DNA from: Deltaproteobacteria bacterium GWA2_45_12
GTDB lineage: Bacteria > UBA10199
Assembly: GCA_001797365.1 (NCBI GenBank)
Contig: MGPH01000037.1
Coordinates: forward strand, 9,897 to 67,466
Direction of reading: 5' to 3'
DNA: 57,570 bases
In this document: positions 11,224 to 55,346 of the stretch, piece by piece
Layout of the letters: every line of letters starts with the position of its first letter
Numbering within the stretch: the first letter of the stretch is position 1
Notes under the pieces: generated by a model
Seen by the model: the letters and a program-made list of their open reading frames with translations, nothing else
What the model was told of the DNA's origin: nothing
The model's database searches: none
Position numbers and translations under genes: made by a program

Positions 11224-12615
11224 ATGACTATGAAAGGCCGTATTCTTGTTGTTGATGACGAAGAAGTGATTGTCAAAGCATTGGTTAAGTATTTAACCCA
11301 GGAAGGATTTGATGTTGAAAGCGCTCCAGATGGCCCCCAGGCCATTGAAATGTGCAAGGACAAGCACTTCGATCTCATATTAACTGATCTGAAAATGCCA
11401 TCGATGGATGGTATTGAGCTTATCAAAGAAGCCAAAAAGATAAGCCCGGACCTTAGTTTTATTGTGATGACGGGGCATGGTTCCATTAACAATGCTGTGC
11501 AAGCCATGAAGGTGGGTGCCTTTCATTACATTACGAAACCCTTTGAGTTAGAGGATGTGAAACACACCATTTTAAAGGCGCTTGAAAATTCTAGTCTCAG
11601 TTACGAAAACAGATTATTGCGCAAGCAGGTTAAAACCCGTTACGGCATGGACAATATCATTGGAGCCAGTGAAGAACTGGAAGAAGTCTTTAAACTGGTG
11701 GAAAAAGTGGCTGAAACGGATTCGACAGTTCTTATTCTGGGTGAATCAGGAACCGGGAAAGAACTCATTGCCCGCGCCATTCATTATAATAGTGCCCGGT
11801 CGGGCAAACCCTTGGTTACTGTTAACTGCGGAGCCATTCCTGAAAACCTTCTTGAATCAGAATTATTTGGACATGTGAAAGGTTCATTTACAGGGGCCAC
11901 TCACACTAAAATGGGACGGTTTGAAATGGCCAATGGGGGAACTATTTTCTTGGACGAAATCGGAGACATGAGTTTAAAGCTTCAGGTCAAGCTCTTGCGT
12001 GTTCTTCAAGAAAGAAAATTTGAGCCTGTTGGGTCCACCAAAACAGTTGAAACGGATGTGCGTGTAATTGCGGCAACAAACCGTAATCTTGAAGATCTTG
12101 TGAACAAGGGGGAGTTTAGGGAAGATCTCTATTACCGACTGAATGTGATTCCCATCAACATACCGCCCTTGCGTCAACGCGTGTGTGATATTCCCATTTT
12201 GGTAGAACATTTTCTAAAAAGCTACTCACAGAGTAACGGGGTGAAGGAACCCAAAATTTCCCAGGAGCTCATGAGTCTTTTAATGAACTACAAATGGCCA
12301 GGCAATGTACGCGAACTTGAAAACACCATGGAACGCCTGGTGGTATTGCGTCCCGGGCAGGAAATACAGGTTTCAGATTTGCCGGATAAATTTTTGAATG
12401 TATCCGATTCATTGTTCAAAAATTCGGCCCTTCATATCCCTGAGGCAGGCATCAATCTTAAAAATGCGGTGAATGATTTTGAAAACACCCTCATTTTAAA
12501 AGCCCTGGAAAAAACCGGATGGAATAAAAACAGGGCGGCCACGCTTCTTAAGCTGAATCGAACAACTCTGGTTGAAAAAATAAAGAAGAAACAACTTGAA
12601 AGATACACAAGTTAG
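11224..12615 (+). CDS. NtrC-family sigma-54 response regulator (complete receiver)
   Basis: 463 residues: receiver (1-125), AAA+ sigma-54 activator domain (about 145-370), Fis-type helix-turn-helix at the C-terminus (NRAATLLKLNRTTLVEKIKKK). The receiver is intact: DD at 11-12, phospho-acceptor D55 in LTDLKMPS, T83 and K105. Walker A GESGTGKE is at 173-180; the sigma-54 contact loop reads GSFTGA. It should therefore respond to phosphorylation, most simply by the kinase encoded 21 bases upstream, and open sigma-54 promoters. It carries GGGGAAA as ribosome site. Confidence 0.95.
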   Translation: MTMKGRILVVDDEEVIVKALVKYLTQEGFDVESAPDGPQAIEMCKDKHFDLILTDLKMPSMDGIELIKEAKKISPDLSFIVMTGHGSINNAVQAMKVGAFHYITKPFELEDVKHTILKALENSSLSYENRLLRKQVKTRYGMDNIIGASEELEEVFKLVEKVAETDSTVLILGESGTGKELIARAIHYNSARSGKPLVTVNCGAIPENLLESELFGHVKGSFTGATHTKMGRFEMANGGTIFLDEIGDMSLKLQVKLLRVLQERKFEPVGSTKTVETDVRVIAATNRNLEDLVNKGEFREDLYYRLNVIPINIPPLRQRVCDIPILVEHFLKSYSQSNGVKEPKISQELMSLLMNYKWPGNVRELENTMERLVVLRPGQEIQVSDLPDKFLNVSDSLFKNSALHIPEAGINLKNAVNDFENTLILKALEKTGWNKNRAATLLKLNRTTLVEKIKKKQLERYTS

Positions 12616-12632
12616 AATGAAAGTAGTTTTTC

Positions 12633-14027
12633 ATGAGCCAGTCAGGTTGTGATTTTTTGTTTGTCGATCCAGACGGTGATGTTCTTTTCTCCCTTACTCA
12701 AAAGGCTTCCCAGCAAGGATGGTCTTTTAAGACATGCACCAGGGCCCAAGCTGCTTTGGATATCCTTGAAAAAGAACAAATTAAAGTTGTTGTTGCCGAA
12801 CTGAATCTTCCCGATTTTTCATCCCTTCAAATTCTTGAATGGCTTCAAACACAGGCGATGAAGCCTGAAGTCATTTTAATGACCGCGCAGGCCAGTGTGG
12901 AAACGGCTATCAAAGCCATGAAGATGCATGCTTTTGACTATTTGATGAAACCATTTTCAGAAAATGAGGCTGTTGTTTTTTGCATGCGACAGGCTCTCGA
13001 TAAATATCATCTGGTGAATAAGATGACTTCTGGGAATACGCAGGGCACGGAGTTTTTATTTTCAGGCATTGTTGGGCAAAGCCAAAAACTAAAAGCCGTG
13101 CTCGATATGGTAACCAATGTAGTCCAAAGTGATACCACCGTTTTAATTTTGGGAGAGTCAGGCACAGGCAAAGAGCTGGTGGCCAAGGCTCTTCATCAGT
13201 TGAGCCACCGTAAAGATAAGCCTTTTGTTGCTATTCATTGTGCGGCCATGCCAGAAACGCTTCTTGAAAGTGAACTTTTTGGATATGTGCGCGGTTCTTT
13301 TACAGACGCAGGTGATGACAAAGAAGGTTTATTTGAAGTGGCTAATGGTGGAATTGTTTTTTTGGATGAAATTGGGGAAATGACCCTGACGACCCAAGTC
13401 AAATTGTTGCGTGTTTTGCAGGAAGGGGAAGTAAGACGTGTCGGGGATACTGTTTCAAAAAAAGTGGATGTGCGCATTGTGGCAGCCACAAACTCCGATT
13501 TAACAGACATGGTGGCCAAAGGTCTTTTTAGGGAAGATCTTTTTTATCGGCTTAATGTTATTGCGGTAACATTGCCACCCTTGCGTGAACGTGGGGAAGA
13601 TATTATTTTACTGGCGAATCATTTTCTTCACAAAATAGCCTCCAAGCTAAACAAGCCGGTTCATAAACTTTCTGTGGATGCTTTGGAAGCTTTAAAGGTC
13701 TATCCATGGCCTGGCAATATTCGAGAACTTGAAAATACCATCGAGCGGGCTGTTGTTTTAAGTGAAGAAGATACCATTCGTGCTAAAAATTTAACTCCAT
13801 CCATTCTGTCCCGGTCTTTTTATACGCCTCCTGTCCCCAATGAAAATTTGAGTTTTCTGGCCTATAAAGAAGCCAAAAAAAGGGCTGTTGACCAATTCAA
13901 CAGTGGTTACATTACAGACCTAGTCGACCGCTGTCAGGGGAACATGACTCAAGCTGCCCTGAAAGCCGGCATGGATCGCAGTAATTTCAAAAAAATATTC
14001 AAAAAATATATCAAAACAAAATCTTAA
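12633..14027 (+). CDS. NtrC-family sigma-54 activator with altered receiver
   Basis: 464 residues with the same receiver, AAA+ and helix-turn-helix layout as its upstream neighbour, from which it is 17 bases away. The phospho-acceptor aspartate is replaced by glutamate (E56 in VVAELNLP), while the acidic pocket (VDPDGD) and the lysine (LMKPF) remain. Asp-to-Glu changes sometimes mimic phosphorylation, so the protein may be active without a kinase. Walker A GESGTGKE is intact; the sigma-54 loop reads GSFTDA, a variant also seen in functional activators. The ribosome site is weak, suggesting coupling. Confidence 0.93.
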   Translation: MSQSGCDFLFVDPDGDVLFSLTQKASQQGWSFKTCTRAQAALDILEKEQIKVVVAELNLPDFSSLQILEWLQTQAMKPEVILMTAQASVETAIKAMKMHAFDYLMKPFSENEAVVFCMRQALDKYHLVNKMTSGNTQGTEFLFSGIVGQSQKLKAVLDMVTNVVQSDTTVLILGESGTGKELVAKALHQLSHRKDKPFVAIHCAAMPETLLESELFGYVRGSFTDAGDDKEGLFEVANGGIVFLDEIGEMTLTTQVKLLRVLQEGEVRRVGDTVSKKVDVRIVAATNSDLTDMVAKGLFREDLFYRLNVIAVTLPPLRERGEDIILLANHFLHKIASKLNKPVHKLSVDALEALKVYPWPGNIRELENTIERAVVLSEEDTIRAKNLTPSILSRSFYTPPVPNENLSFLAYKEAKKRAVDQFNSGYITDLVDRCQGNMTQAALKAGMDRSNFKKIFKKYIKTKS

Positions 14028-14105
14028 CCGGTAAACTTGTTTAAAATTTTTTTCAATTATTTCTAGTTTGACTCTTTTTTTTGGATATGGTCCATAAGAG
14101 TTTTC

Positions 14106-15515
14106 ATGCCTATGACTAAAGAACTTGTCCTTCTCTGCGGTACTTATACAAAAGCCCTTGAGGATATTCCCTCTGTTCTGGCCAAAGAAGGTTTAAAAAC
14201 CCAGAATGTTTTGCCCCATGAATTGGTTCCTCAAATTTCCCAGGCTCAAGGGGATCTGGTTGTATTAAGCTTTCCCAAAAATGAACTCGATGCGGTTTTT
14301 CCCTTGGTGGAAGCCATCAAGCAGGAAAATGACAGCCTTCCCATTTTTGTTGTTTCTGACAACGACCAGGCCGGCCCTGCTGTCAGTCTTATTAAAAAAG
14401 GGGTGGCTGAATATATTTCTTACCCGCTTGATAAATCGTTTAAAAATCTGGTCCAGCATGCTCTTCGTTATTACAACCTCACCAAAAAAGTTTTTTTGTT
14501 GGAAGATAGATTAGGGATTGCCACTTCTTTTGAAGGAATGATCGGTCGCAGTGAAAGAATGATTGAAAATTTCAGGATGATCCAGGCCGTGGCCAAGTCG
14601 AATGCCACGGTTCTCATCACAGGAGAGTCCGGTACAGGCAAAGAACTTGTGGCCAAGGCCATTCACCGGCGCTCTGACCGCGCCTCTTTTCGTTTTATTG
14701 ACCTCAATTGCGGAGCCATTCCGCGTGACCTTCTGGAAAATGAATTGTTTGGCCATGAGCGGGGAGCTTTTACGGGGGCCCATAAAAGATATCAGGGTAG
14801 TTTTGAGGCGGCGCATCGGGGAACGCTTTTTTTGGATGAAATTAGCGAAATGGATCCCCTGCTTCAGGTGAAATTATTGCGCGTACTCCAGGAACGCAGC
14901 TTCATGCGTATTGGGGGCACTGAAAAAATTGATGTGGATGTACGCATTGTGGCGGCCACCAACCGCAATCTGCACGAATCCATCGAAAAAGGTCTCTTTC
15001 GTGAAGATCTTTTCTATCGTTTGAATGTGGTGAATATTAACATTCCTTCGCTTCGCGACCGGCGTGCAGATATTCCCCTTTTAGCCCATCACTTTTTGGA
15101 ACTTTATTCGGCTAAAAATAACCGTATTTTTCTTGATTTTGCGGATGACTGCATGGAAGCCCTTATCAATTATGACTGGCCGGGCAATGTGCGCGAATTA
15201 GAAAACACAATCGAACGTGTGGTTGTGTTGCATAACGACAGCCAGGTTAAACTTAAATTTTTATCCAAACAAATCCAGCGCGTGAGTCGTGCCATCAGTT
15301 TTAAGGAGGTTGCCAGGTCGGGCATGAGTTTGGATGATTCAAAAATTATTCCTTTAGATGATCTGGAACGCAAAGCCATTGAAGGGGCGCTTATCAAATT
15401 TCAGGGCAATATCGGGGTTGCGGCCAAAAAGCTTCAGATAGGGCAGGCCACTCTTTATCGAAAAGTAAAAAAGTACGGGCTTATTCAATTGGGAAAACTG
15501 GCCAAGGAAATTTAA
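14106..15515 (+). CDS. NtrC-family sigma-54 activator with pseudo-receiver
   Basis: 469 residues. The first 125 have a receiver-like alternation of strands and helices but no acidic pocket, a serine region where the aspartate should be (VVLSFPKNEL) and tyrosine in place of the lysine (YISYPLD), so phosphorylation is unlikely. The AAA+ domain is complete: GESGTGKE, canonical GAFTGA, and a Fis-like C-terminal helix-turn-helix (NIGVAAKKLQIGQATLYRKVKKYGL). A 78-base gap separates it from the previous gene, so it may have its own promoter. Only 3 bases separate it from the STAS gene, linking it to the partner-switching pair. Confidence 0.93.
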   Translation: MPMTKELVLLCGTYTKALEDIPSVLAKEGLKTQNVLPHELVPQISQAQGDLVVLSFPKNELDAVFPLVEAIKQENDSLPIFVVSDNDQAGPAVSLIKKGVAEYISYPLDKSFKNLVQHALRYYNLTKKVFLLEDRLGIATSFEGMIGRSERMIENFRMIQAVAKSNATVLITGESGTGKELVAKAIHRRSDRASFRFIDLNCGAIPRDLLENELFGHERGAFTGAHKRYQGSFEAAHRGTLFLDEISEMDPLLQVKLLRVLQERSFMRIGGTEKIDVDVRIVAATNRNLHESIEKGLFREDLFYRLNVVNINIPSLRDRRADIPLLAHHFLELYSAKNNRIFLDFADDCMEALINYDWPGNVRELENTIERVVVLHNDSQVKLKFLSKQIQRVSRAISFKEVARSGMSLDDSKIIPLDDLERKAIEGALIKFQGNIGVAAKKLQIGQATLYRKVKKYGLIQLGKLAKEI

Positions 15516-19904: not shown

Positions 19905-19938
19905 AAAATGGAGGAAAAATTTCCTTTGGAAATTTTTG

Positions 19939-20021
19939 TGCCGGAGGTGGGAGTTGAACCCACACACACTTGCGTGCATCGGATTTTGAGTCCGACGTGT
20001 CTGCCATTCCACCACTCCGGC
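19939..20021 (-). tRNA. tRNA-Leu (CAA)
   Basis: Acceptor arms GCCGGAG and CTCCGGC pair; the anticodon arm TCGGA-CTCAAAA-TCCGA gives anticodon CAA; a long variable arm and the T-arm GGGTTCAACTCCC complete a class II tRNA. CCA is not encoded. It reads UUG codons. Confidence 0.95.
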
Positions 20022-20120
20022 AAAGCAACCAAAACAAAGAGAAGGGGGAGTTTCCTACTTCTATTTTCAGGACAGTTCAAATGATTTTTTGAGGCATTTT
20101 TTGAGGCATTTTGACGGGGG

Positions 20121-20261
20121 CTTTCCTGAAAACATTTTTTTGTGGATGAAACAATTTGAAATCCGGTTTCAATAAAAAGTTCGGTTGGAATGTTTCTTGG
20201 GCTTGAAAAAGATTCTTATGAGGCAAATTGTTTCATCCACAAAAAAATGTTTTCAGGAAAG
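20121..20261. repeat. 37-bp perfect inverted repeat around a 67-bp spacer
   Basis: The arm at 20121-20157 begins CTTTCCTGAAAACA and ends GATGAAACAATTT; the arm at 20225-20261 is its exact complement. The spacer has no gene. It lies 16 bases past the stop of the minus-strand gene at 20278, and after two direct TTTTTTGAGGCA copies. It could be a very long hairpin in the transcript, an invertible segment, or a fragment of a mobile element; no target duplication is seen. Confidence 0.9.
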
Positions 20262-20277: not shown

Positions 20278-20601
20278 TTACTTATTACTTACTTTAGGTT
20301 GGGACTTGGTTTCAAGTTCGTCCATCATTTCCATTTCACGAACCATGGGGTCTATTTCTCCCCCGTAACGGCGTAGGTTTTCATCAGTACGAGAAACGAC
20401 AACCTCATATTCCTGTTTGGGGAGATGAACGTAGGCTGTGTTGATTTTGTGCGTGGGAGTATAGGTTTTGTAATGAGGGAGATATTGTCCCCCACAGGAG
20501 AGAATTTCAGAAGATTCCCCCAAACGATGGTAGACCGACTGGGCTTTTTCATAAGCTGGCAGCAGAACTGAACCGCATAATGTTTCTCTCCATCGACTCA
20601 T
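20278..20601 (-). CDS. Hypothetical protein, putative sigma-54-dependent gene
   Basis: 107 residues from the ATG at 20601, preferred over the one at 20607 because AAGGAG ends right against the latter and 6 bases before the former. No known motif: SRWRETLCGS start, Tyr-rich centre (YLPHYKTYTP), acidic-methionine block (MVREMEMMDELE). No signal peptide. A sigma-54-type promoter lies about 28 bases upstream and a perfect 37-bp inverted repeat just downstream. The family is not recognised; the case for a real gene rests on the promoter, ribosome site and composition. Confidence 0.65.
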   Translation of the reverse strand: MSRWRETLCGSVLLPAYEKAQSVYHRLGESSEILSCGGQYLPHYKTYTPTHKINTAYVHLPKQEYEVVVSRTDENLRRYGGEIDPMVREMEMMDELETKSQPKVSNK

Positions 20602-20628
20602 ATCCATCTCCTTACACCCATAAAGAGA

Positions 20629-20833: not shown

Positions 20834-21586
20834 ATGACGCAAGCAGCCCAACTCATAGCGGTCATTTATGAAGACACAGAACTGATACTTCTTGATAAAG
20901 CAGCTGGAATGCCTGTTTTTCCTCAAAGAAAGGGCGAGGATGATCAAAAAACGGTGCGGCATTGGCTTTGTGCTCATTATCCAGAACAGAAAAGAATTGT
21001 TCCCTTTGAAGAAGCGGGGATTGTTCATCGGCTGGATAATGATACTTCCGGAATCTTGGTGGTGGGCAAAACTCAATTGGCCTATGATTTTTTGCGCAAG
21101 ATATGGAATACGCTGCAAGTAACAAAAGAATATGGGGCTCTCGTGTTGGGAGCCATCACTTCCCCCCTTTTGATAAATCTTTCCATTGCGCATCATCCAT
21201 CACGTCATAACAAGATGGTGGTGTGCCAAACAGAACAAAAGACCCTCGAACTGAAAGGAAGGCAGGCGTATACAAAAGTGGAGCGCCTTGGGCTTTATCA
21301 AGACAAAAGAGGGTATAATTACAGCCTTGTTTCTGTTGAAATCAAAACAGGGGTACGGCATCAGATTAGAGCGCATTTGGCGGGCCAGGGGCATCCCTTG
21401 GCGGGAGATGGGCTTTATCAAAACTCATTGAAGAAGAAACAGGATCTTTTGGGAATGCCGCGGCATTTTCTTCATTTAAGGCGCATACAATTACCCCACC
21501 CGATGACAGGGGAAAAAATGGCATGGGTGACGGAATTCCCCCATGATTTGATGAATGTATTAAATCAGTTAAGAAGGGTGAGTTAG
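20834..21586 (+). CDS. RluA-family pseudouridine synthase
   Basis: 250 residues. IVHRLDNDTSGILVV holds the catalytic aspartate of the HRLDxxTSG motif; GVRHQIRAHLAGQGHPLAGD is the second RluA block. No S4 RNA-binding domain precedes it, as in the RluA/TruC type. It isomerises uridine in rRNA or tRNA; the site is not deducible. Upstream, GACAAAACTGAT occurs twice in tandem (about 20771). The 3' end overlaps the convergent next gene by 4 bases. Confidence 0.92.
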   Translation: MTQAAQLIAVIYEDTELILLDKAAGMPVFPQRKGEDDQKTVRHWLCAHYPEQKRIVPFEEAGIVHRLDNDTSGILVVGKTQLAYDFLRKIWNTLQVTKEYGALVLGAITSPLLINLSIAHHPSRHNKMVVCQTEQKTLELKGRQAYTKVERLGLYQDKRGYNYSLVSVEIKTGVRHQIRAHLAGQGHPLAGDGLYQNSLKKKQDLLGMPRHFLHLRRIQLPHPMTGEKMAWVTEFPHDLMNVLNQLRRVS

Positions 21587-39340: not shown

Positions 39341-39529
39341 TCCCGTGTATGATGTCCCCCTTTAAAAAAGGGGGATTAAGGGGGATTTGTTTCCGTTCCT
39401 GTTTTTGGATCCGCTTTCGCATTTGTTCCTCAGTATGCGGGGAGGGTGCGGAATCAAATCCCCCTGCCCCCCTTTTTTTCAGCCAAAGGACTGATCCGTC
39501 CTTCGGCGGAAAAGGGGGATGATACGGGA
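39341..39529. repeat. Composite CCCCCTTT/AAAGGGGG repeat element
   Basis: The ends are related inverted repeats (CCCGTGTATGATGTCCCCC and GGGGGATGATACGGG). Inside, CCCCCTTT/AAAGGGGG, GGGGGATTT/AAATCCCCC and CGGAaag-type hairpins are nested. No gene. Related blocks lie at 46639 and 52239. Confidence 0.65.
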
Positions 39530-46638: not shown

Positions 46639-46769
46639 GCATCCCCCTTTAAAAAAGGGGGACACAGGGAGATTTTACCCGTATTCTTTTCTGCATCGGG
46701 GGAGATATAAACAAAGCGGGCACGAAAACAAATCCCCCTTAATCCCCCTTTTTTAAAGGGGGAAAGATA
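46639..46769. repeat. CCCCCTTT/AAAGGGGG repeat pair
   Basis: Two outward CCCCCTTTAAAAAAGGGGG-like hairpins with GGGAGATTTT and AAATCCCCC between them. It fills much of the 295-base gap between nth and the methyltransferase-like gene. Confidence 0.65.
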
Positions 46770-51053: not shown

Positions 51054-51809
51054 ATGAGAAAAATAGGGACAATCCTAGGATTGTCCCTACGGAATATGGT
51101 TTCATCACACTCCATTGCTTTTTTTGACGTCGATCACACCCTGATGCCGTGCAATTCGGGGTATTACACCACTTTGCGTTTGGTGCGCCGTGGGTATATG
51201 AAAAAGCGCCGCCTGATTCAGGCCGTTGGTTATTCGCTTATCTCAATTTTTCACGACCCCGATGTCCAAAAAGTTTACAAAAATGCCATTGCTGATTTGG
51301 TGGGGTTGTCCCTTGAAGAACTTTTTAAAGTGGGGCGTGAAACCTATGATCGCGATCTCAAACACCTTATCTATTCCGAGGCCATCAATCAAATTGAACA
51401 TCATCGGAATGAAGGGCATAAAATTATTTTACTCACCAGTGCGCCCTACATGACAATGAAAATTCTGATGGATGAATTAAAAGTGGACGATGTCTATTGC
51501 ATGGGGCCGGAAATAGAAAACGGGATTTTATCCAATCGCCTGTGTTTACCCTTATGTTATGGGACCAACAAGGTCCATTATGCAATCAAAGCCGCTAAAA
51601 AACACCAAGTGGACCTTAAAGATTGTTATTTTTATACCGACCATTGGCGGGATGTTGCGCTTTTATACCAGATTGGGCACCCACGCGTGGTGAATCCGAA
51701 GCGAAAATTGGAAAAAATAGCGTTAGAGAAAAAATGGCCGATTTTGAGGTGGAAAAAAATGGCGAATGATGCTGGGACCGGTCCTTCGACTCCGCTCAGG
51801 AACCGGTAA
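51054..51809 (+). CDS. HAD-superfamily phosphatase (HAD-IB, SerB-like)
   Basis: 251 residues, or 237 from the ATG at 51096. FFDVDHTL is motif I (both aspartates), LLTSAP motif II, NKVHYAIKAAKKH motif III, YTDHWRDVAL motif IV. The family removes phosphate from small molecules or lipids. Oddities: if translation starts at 51054 the first 13 codons lie in a palindromic repeat, and the C-terminal dozen (GTGPSTPLRNR) is translated from another repeat. No strong ribosome site for either start. Confidence 0.85.
   Translation: MRKIGTILGLSLRNMVSSHSIAFFDVDHTLMPCNSGYYTTLRLVRRGYMKKRRLIQAVGYSLISIFHDPDVQKVYKNAIADLVGLSLEELFKVGRETYDRDLKHLIYSEAINQIEHHRNEGHKIILLTSAPYMTMKILMDELKVDDVYCMGPEIENGILSNRLCLPLCYGTNKVHYAIKAAKKHQVDLKDCYFYTDHWRDVALLYQIGHPRVVNPKRKLEKIALEKKWPILRWKKMANDAGTGPSTPLRNR
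51063..51090. repeat. ATAGGGACAATCCT palindrome (28 bp) at the HAD gene start
   Basis: Same as the GTAGGGACAATCCT units except for its first base. It lies between the two candidate start codons of the HAD gene. Confidence 0.85.
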
Positions 51810-51855
51810 CGGGATTATTTAAAGAGAGGTCCCTGAGCGTAGTCGAAGGGCCGGG
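51774..51855. repeat. Inverted CTCAGG/TCGAAGG repeat at a convergent gene junction
   Basis: CCGGTCCTTCGACTCCGCTC and, in inverse, CTGAGCGTAGTCGAAGGGCC, with AACCGGTAACGGG between. The two genes end inside it: the HAD protein and the YgfZ-like protein each take their last residues from it and overlap by 14 bases. Confidence 0.75.
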
Positions 51856-52584: not shown

Positions 52585-52610
52585 GAAGAAATAACCTAGA
52601 ATGCATAAAT

Positions 52611-52697
52611 CTTGTTCCCACGCTCCAGCGTGGGAACGTAAAAGGCGACGCTCTAGCGTCGAAAACTTGTGTCCCCACGCTGGAGCGTGGGAACAAG
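52611..52697. repeat. BIME of three CCCACGC/GACGC palindromes
   Basis: CTTGTTCCCACGCTCCAGCG followed by its complement, a central GACGCTCTAGCGTC, and an inverted closing copy (CACGCTGGAGCGTGG). The order outward-inner-inverse is that of a classical REP cluster. It lies in the promoter region between the YgfZ gene and the lipoprotein. Confidence 0.85.
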
Positions 52698-52727
52698 AGG
52701 TATGGGTTTGCCCCTACACGTTATCAA

Positions 52728-55254: not shown

Positions 55255-55346
55255 TATTCCCTCTCCCTTGAGGGGAGAGGGTTAGGGAGAGGGTGGTTTC
55301 AATTGGCACCCTCCCCTTAGTCCCCTCCCCTCAAGGGAGGGGAGAT
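55255..55346. repeat. CCCTCTCCCTT/AGGGAGAGG repeat pair
   Basis: CTCTCCCTTGAGGGGAGAG at one end and CCCCTCAAGGGAGGGGAG at the other, in inverse relation to TTAGGGAGAGGG and CCCTCCCCTTAG between them. It lies between the two propeller lipoprotein genes. Confidence 0.7.

Follow-up and report, generated by a model that had tools for sequence, protein, structure and literature searches.

How did a long inverted repeat with perfectly complementary arms come to lie in the gap between a tRNA-Leu gene and a small open reading frame in a 57,570-nucleotide stretch of the Deltaproteobacteria bacterium GWA2_45_12 genome (hereafter the window), and do its arms point to a switch, a mobile element, a functional RNA or a copying event?

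A perfect, single-copy inverted repeat

The preliminary description of this locus had reported a perfect inverted repeat with 37-bp arms and a 67-bp centre. The lack of any mismatch holds, while the description falls one base pair short, the arms measuring 38 bp and the centre 65 bp. The repeat and the two features that flank it are as follows:

19938 to 20021, minus strand: tRNA-Leu (CAA), with the repeat about 100 bp upstream of its 5' end
20121 to 20158, plus strand: left arm, 38 bp
20159 to 20223, no strand: centre, 65 bp, with no promoter-like site and a fold of its own no better than that of shuffled sequences
20224 to 20261, minus strand: right arm, 38 bp, the perfect reverse complement of the left arm
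20278 to 20607, minus strand: ORF109, a 109-aa open reading frame whose stop lies 17 bp from the repeat, present in 8/8 genomes compared of the order

Complementarity between the arms is 100% over 38 bp across the 65-bp spacer, compared with a longest perfect arm of 11-16 bp in 20 dinucleotide-shuffled versions of the window (spacer <=300), and chance is therefore excluded; the repeat is confirmed as a genuine feature of the assembly that far exceeds random expectation. It is also the longest perfect inverted repeat in a 352-kb background sample of the same genome, composed of the window and the first <=20 kb of contigs 1-20, where the next longest measures 25 bp. Loci of related and more remote genomes, 1.24 Mb in total, yielded a single perfect arm of 26 bp or more, a 32-bp one in L131. 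The G+C content of the 141-bp repeat is 32%, versus 44% in the whole window; by hand count the centre stands at about 35% and the arms at about 29%, so that the centre, called AT-rich in the preliminary description, is less so than the arms.

No second copy of the arm was detected in the whole genome with up to 3 mismatches allowed, and partial matches that score lower reach E-values no better than 0.2. Of the weak matches on C21, C48 and C60, the four inspected are located inside predicted ORFs or at their ends and seem to be chance similarities. A search of relatives for the arms, proposed in the preliminary description, was run on 45 other genomes of the class (none of the same genus or family) and found them in none, and the repeat is likewise conserved at none of the relatives' ORF109 or tRNA loci. 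Two exact 24-mers of the arm had no match in viral contigs, the repeat had none in the phage collection, and plasmids returned weak matches only (32 bp at E 0.5 among the matches listed). Within the 352-kb sample, fragments of the arms are confined to the two arms themselves. Other long hairpins of the sample have cores found there repeatedly, among them CCCCCTTTAAAAAAGGGGG (10 counts), GTTCCCACGCTCC (5 counts), CTTCGACTCCGCTCAGG (5 counts) and GTAAGGGCAATTCA (14 counts).

A rearranged gap between ORF109 and tRNA-Leu

Read along the minus strand, the gene order is ORF109 (20607-20278), the repeat and tRNA-Leu CAA (20021-19938), and the repeat faces only the 5' end of the tRNA and the 3' end of ORF109. 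Outside the order, a single one of the class relatives searched has an ORF109 homologue; the ORF matched no Pfam family, and no carrier was found in contigs of named genomes. The protein family bears the N-terminal motif MSRWRETLCG.

In four genomes of the order (L022, L023, L024 and L025), ORF109 is followed by a convergent ICMT/PEMT-type methyltransferase gene on the opposite strand and then by tRNA-Leu CAA. The window lacks this methyltransferase gene and has the repeat in that position, the one homologue elsewhere in this genome being distant (C5, 31% identity). Beyond the tRNA-Leu/ORF109 block, genes for a DUF6677-like protein and an exonuclease are found in L022, L024, L025 and the window alike, and by comparison with L022 and L025 the block itself is turned around in the window with respect to the genes beside it. 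The loss of the methyltransferase gene and the inversion of the block thus mark the gap, as judged from gene order, as a rearranged, lineage-specific spacer.

The window also carries a pseudouridine synthase gene (20834-21586, plus strand) between ORF109 and the DUF6677 gene, for which no homologue was found at the corresponding loci of L022, L024 and L025. Between tRNA-Leu and the repeat, positions 20084-20107 hold a perfect 12-bp tandem duplication, ATTTTTTGAGGC, possibly a second copying slip in the spacer.

We also considered the spacer as a decayed methyltransferase gene, given a resemblance by eye to the C-terminal part of ICMT-like proteins (FPENIFLW, KKFG...RFL), and rejected this candidate: frameshift-tolerant profile alignment of the spacer against shuffles was unsupportive. 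On the expected plus strand the score was 24.2 versus a mean of 23.3 in shuffles of the spacer minus the right arm, with 107/300 shuffles reaching 24.2. The other strand, whose orientation is not the one predicted by synteny, gave a marginal score of 31.0, reached by 21/600 shuffles with both strands counted.

Template switching as the favored origin

We favor, with moderate confidence and from comparison of sequences, a lineage-specific inverted duplication produced by replication template switching (fold-back synthesis) in one event within the rearranged gap. The polymerase would have left its template during replication and, before resuming there, copied about 38 bases of DNA close by in the inverted orientation, one of the two arms presumably being the copy. 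The site of the event would be a gap already rearranged in the lineage, with the ORF109-tRNA block inverted and the methyltransferase gene gone. This reading fits best because the repeat is single-copy, perfect, unconserved, devoid of transposon hallmarks and located in a rearranged spacer, and the recent duplication suggested in the preliminary description is in keeping with it, perfect arms, a single copy and lineage-specific occurrence being the marks of a template switch. Against it, few template-switch insertions of such length are known in bacteria.

Template switching is reported to make perfect stems in a single event and to re-establish pairing where stems already exist (PMC8794818), and in E. 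coli template-switch mutations associated with quasipalindromes are reported (PMC7202029). Such hairpins and quasipalindromes (PMC8794818, PMC7202029) resemble the repeat in having close, perfect reverse-complement arms, no family members and a plausible origin in one event, whereas here the event is read from the present sequence of one genome. The perfect pairing would accordingly reflect youth, or re-homogenisation by template switching, rather than demonstrated selection. The repeat gives no pointer to a new switch or system; it is a clean case of a long, perfect, single-copy inverted repeat within a bacterial spacer that has been rearranged, and as such useful for studies of template-switch mutation.

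Alternative explanations

Viewed in one genome, a selected functional hairpin would appear identical to a template-switch product. The predicted RNA fold of the repeat has z-scores of -11.2 on the minus strand and -8.9 on the plus strand and a minimum free energy of -60.5 kcal/mol for the minus-strand hairpin. A hairpin at the 3' end of the ORF109 transcript, its perfection maintained by selection, would block 3'-5' exonucleases or be cut by RNase III, parting the ORF109 mRNA from the downstream same-strand tRNA-Leu precursor; the minus-strand energy and z-score speak for such a role, as does a stem 17 nt past the ORF109 stop on the strand shared with the tRNA. We nevertheless consider it unlikely, as the hairpin is conserved at no relative's ORF109 or tRNA locus, is followed by no U-tract, coincides with no terminator call and matches no Rfam family at gathering score. 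Sub-threshold Rfam microRNA matches were set aside as generic, reflecting only the long perfect stem. Nor does the repeat resemble a Rho-independent terminator, its stem being AT-rich with no T-run after it on either strand. Improbable in our estimate is the narrower proposal of a dedicated 3' hairpin, placed between a small lineage-specific gene and a tRNA-Leu transcribed together with it, that would stabilise the mRNA or serve as an RNase III cleavage element. Of the long dsRNA-like stem at a 3' end put forward in the preliminary description, the position thus survives as a possibility, whereas selection for the stem is unsupported. Under the template-switch origin, an ORF109 transcript that reads through would carry a 38-bp stem just past its stop codon, which could stabilise or define its 3' end; because the predicted hairpin is very stable, this side effect is plausible.

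An orphan miniature transposable element, with a 65-bp core within 38-bp terminal inverted repeats, would account for the 141-bp size and MITE-like architecture in a genome where other hairpin repeat families are present, and the stem-loop repeat families and REP/ERIC-like elements described elsewhere (PMC2267715, PMC3733652) are similarly intergenic with long stem-loops. Those families are multi-copy, however, whereas this repeat, unlike several other hairpins of the window, has one copy in the genome; no target-site duplication of 3-11 bp (the sizes scored) occurs within 5 bp of its ends, and phage and viral collections lack it, with weak plasmid matches only, which makes such an element quite improbable. 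An inverted chimeric read incorporated in the contig is less credible still: the genome is a draft assembly of 68 contigs, yet syntenic genes continue on both flanks, and placing an inverted copy inside a contig, between two unique flanks, requires two switch points and consensus support. Least credible of all is a phase-variable invertible segment with a promoter in its centre, as had been proposed for this locus. Like invertible promoters (PMC8748976), the repeat is a short segment between inverted arms, but it differs from them in having no promoter-like site (a scan of 20121-20261 for sigma-70-type sites gave no match), no tyrosine (PF00589) or serine (PF00239) recombinase on contig 37, and no gene to switch, the tRNA alone reading outward. 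Genome-wide, three PF00589 matches and one PF00239 match occur, all on other contigs.

Where att sites are known at tRNAs, they are located within the tRNA, usually in the 3' half. The suggested recombination site at tRNA-Leu is therefore unsupported, since the repeat lies outside the tRNA, some 100 bp from its 5' end. The supposed nearness to a sigma-54-controlled gene is likewise unsupported: none was shown near the repeat, and the sigma-54 activator gene (14106-15515) is about 4.6 kb off rather than adjacent.

Other features of the window

Other long imperfect hairpins occur in the window at 52604-52704, 46642-46763, 55260-55342, 51778-51854 and 39365-39479, some of which share cores with multi-copy REP-like repeats in the genome. 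On the plus strand, three sigma-54 activator genes lie in tandem at 11371-15515, with genes of STAS, SpoIIE/HATPase and folylpolyglutamate synthase-like type after them; the activator tandem and its gene order are seen again in several uncultured bacteria (L054, L056, L057). Among named entries, the sigma-54 activator neighbouring the repeat is closest to uncultured 'Deltaproteobacteria' metagenome assemblies, several of them from groundwater, with a best protein identity of 65%.
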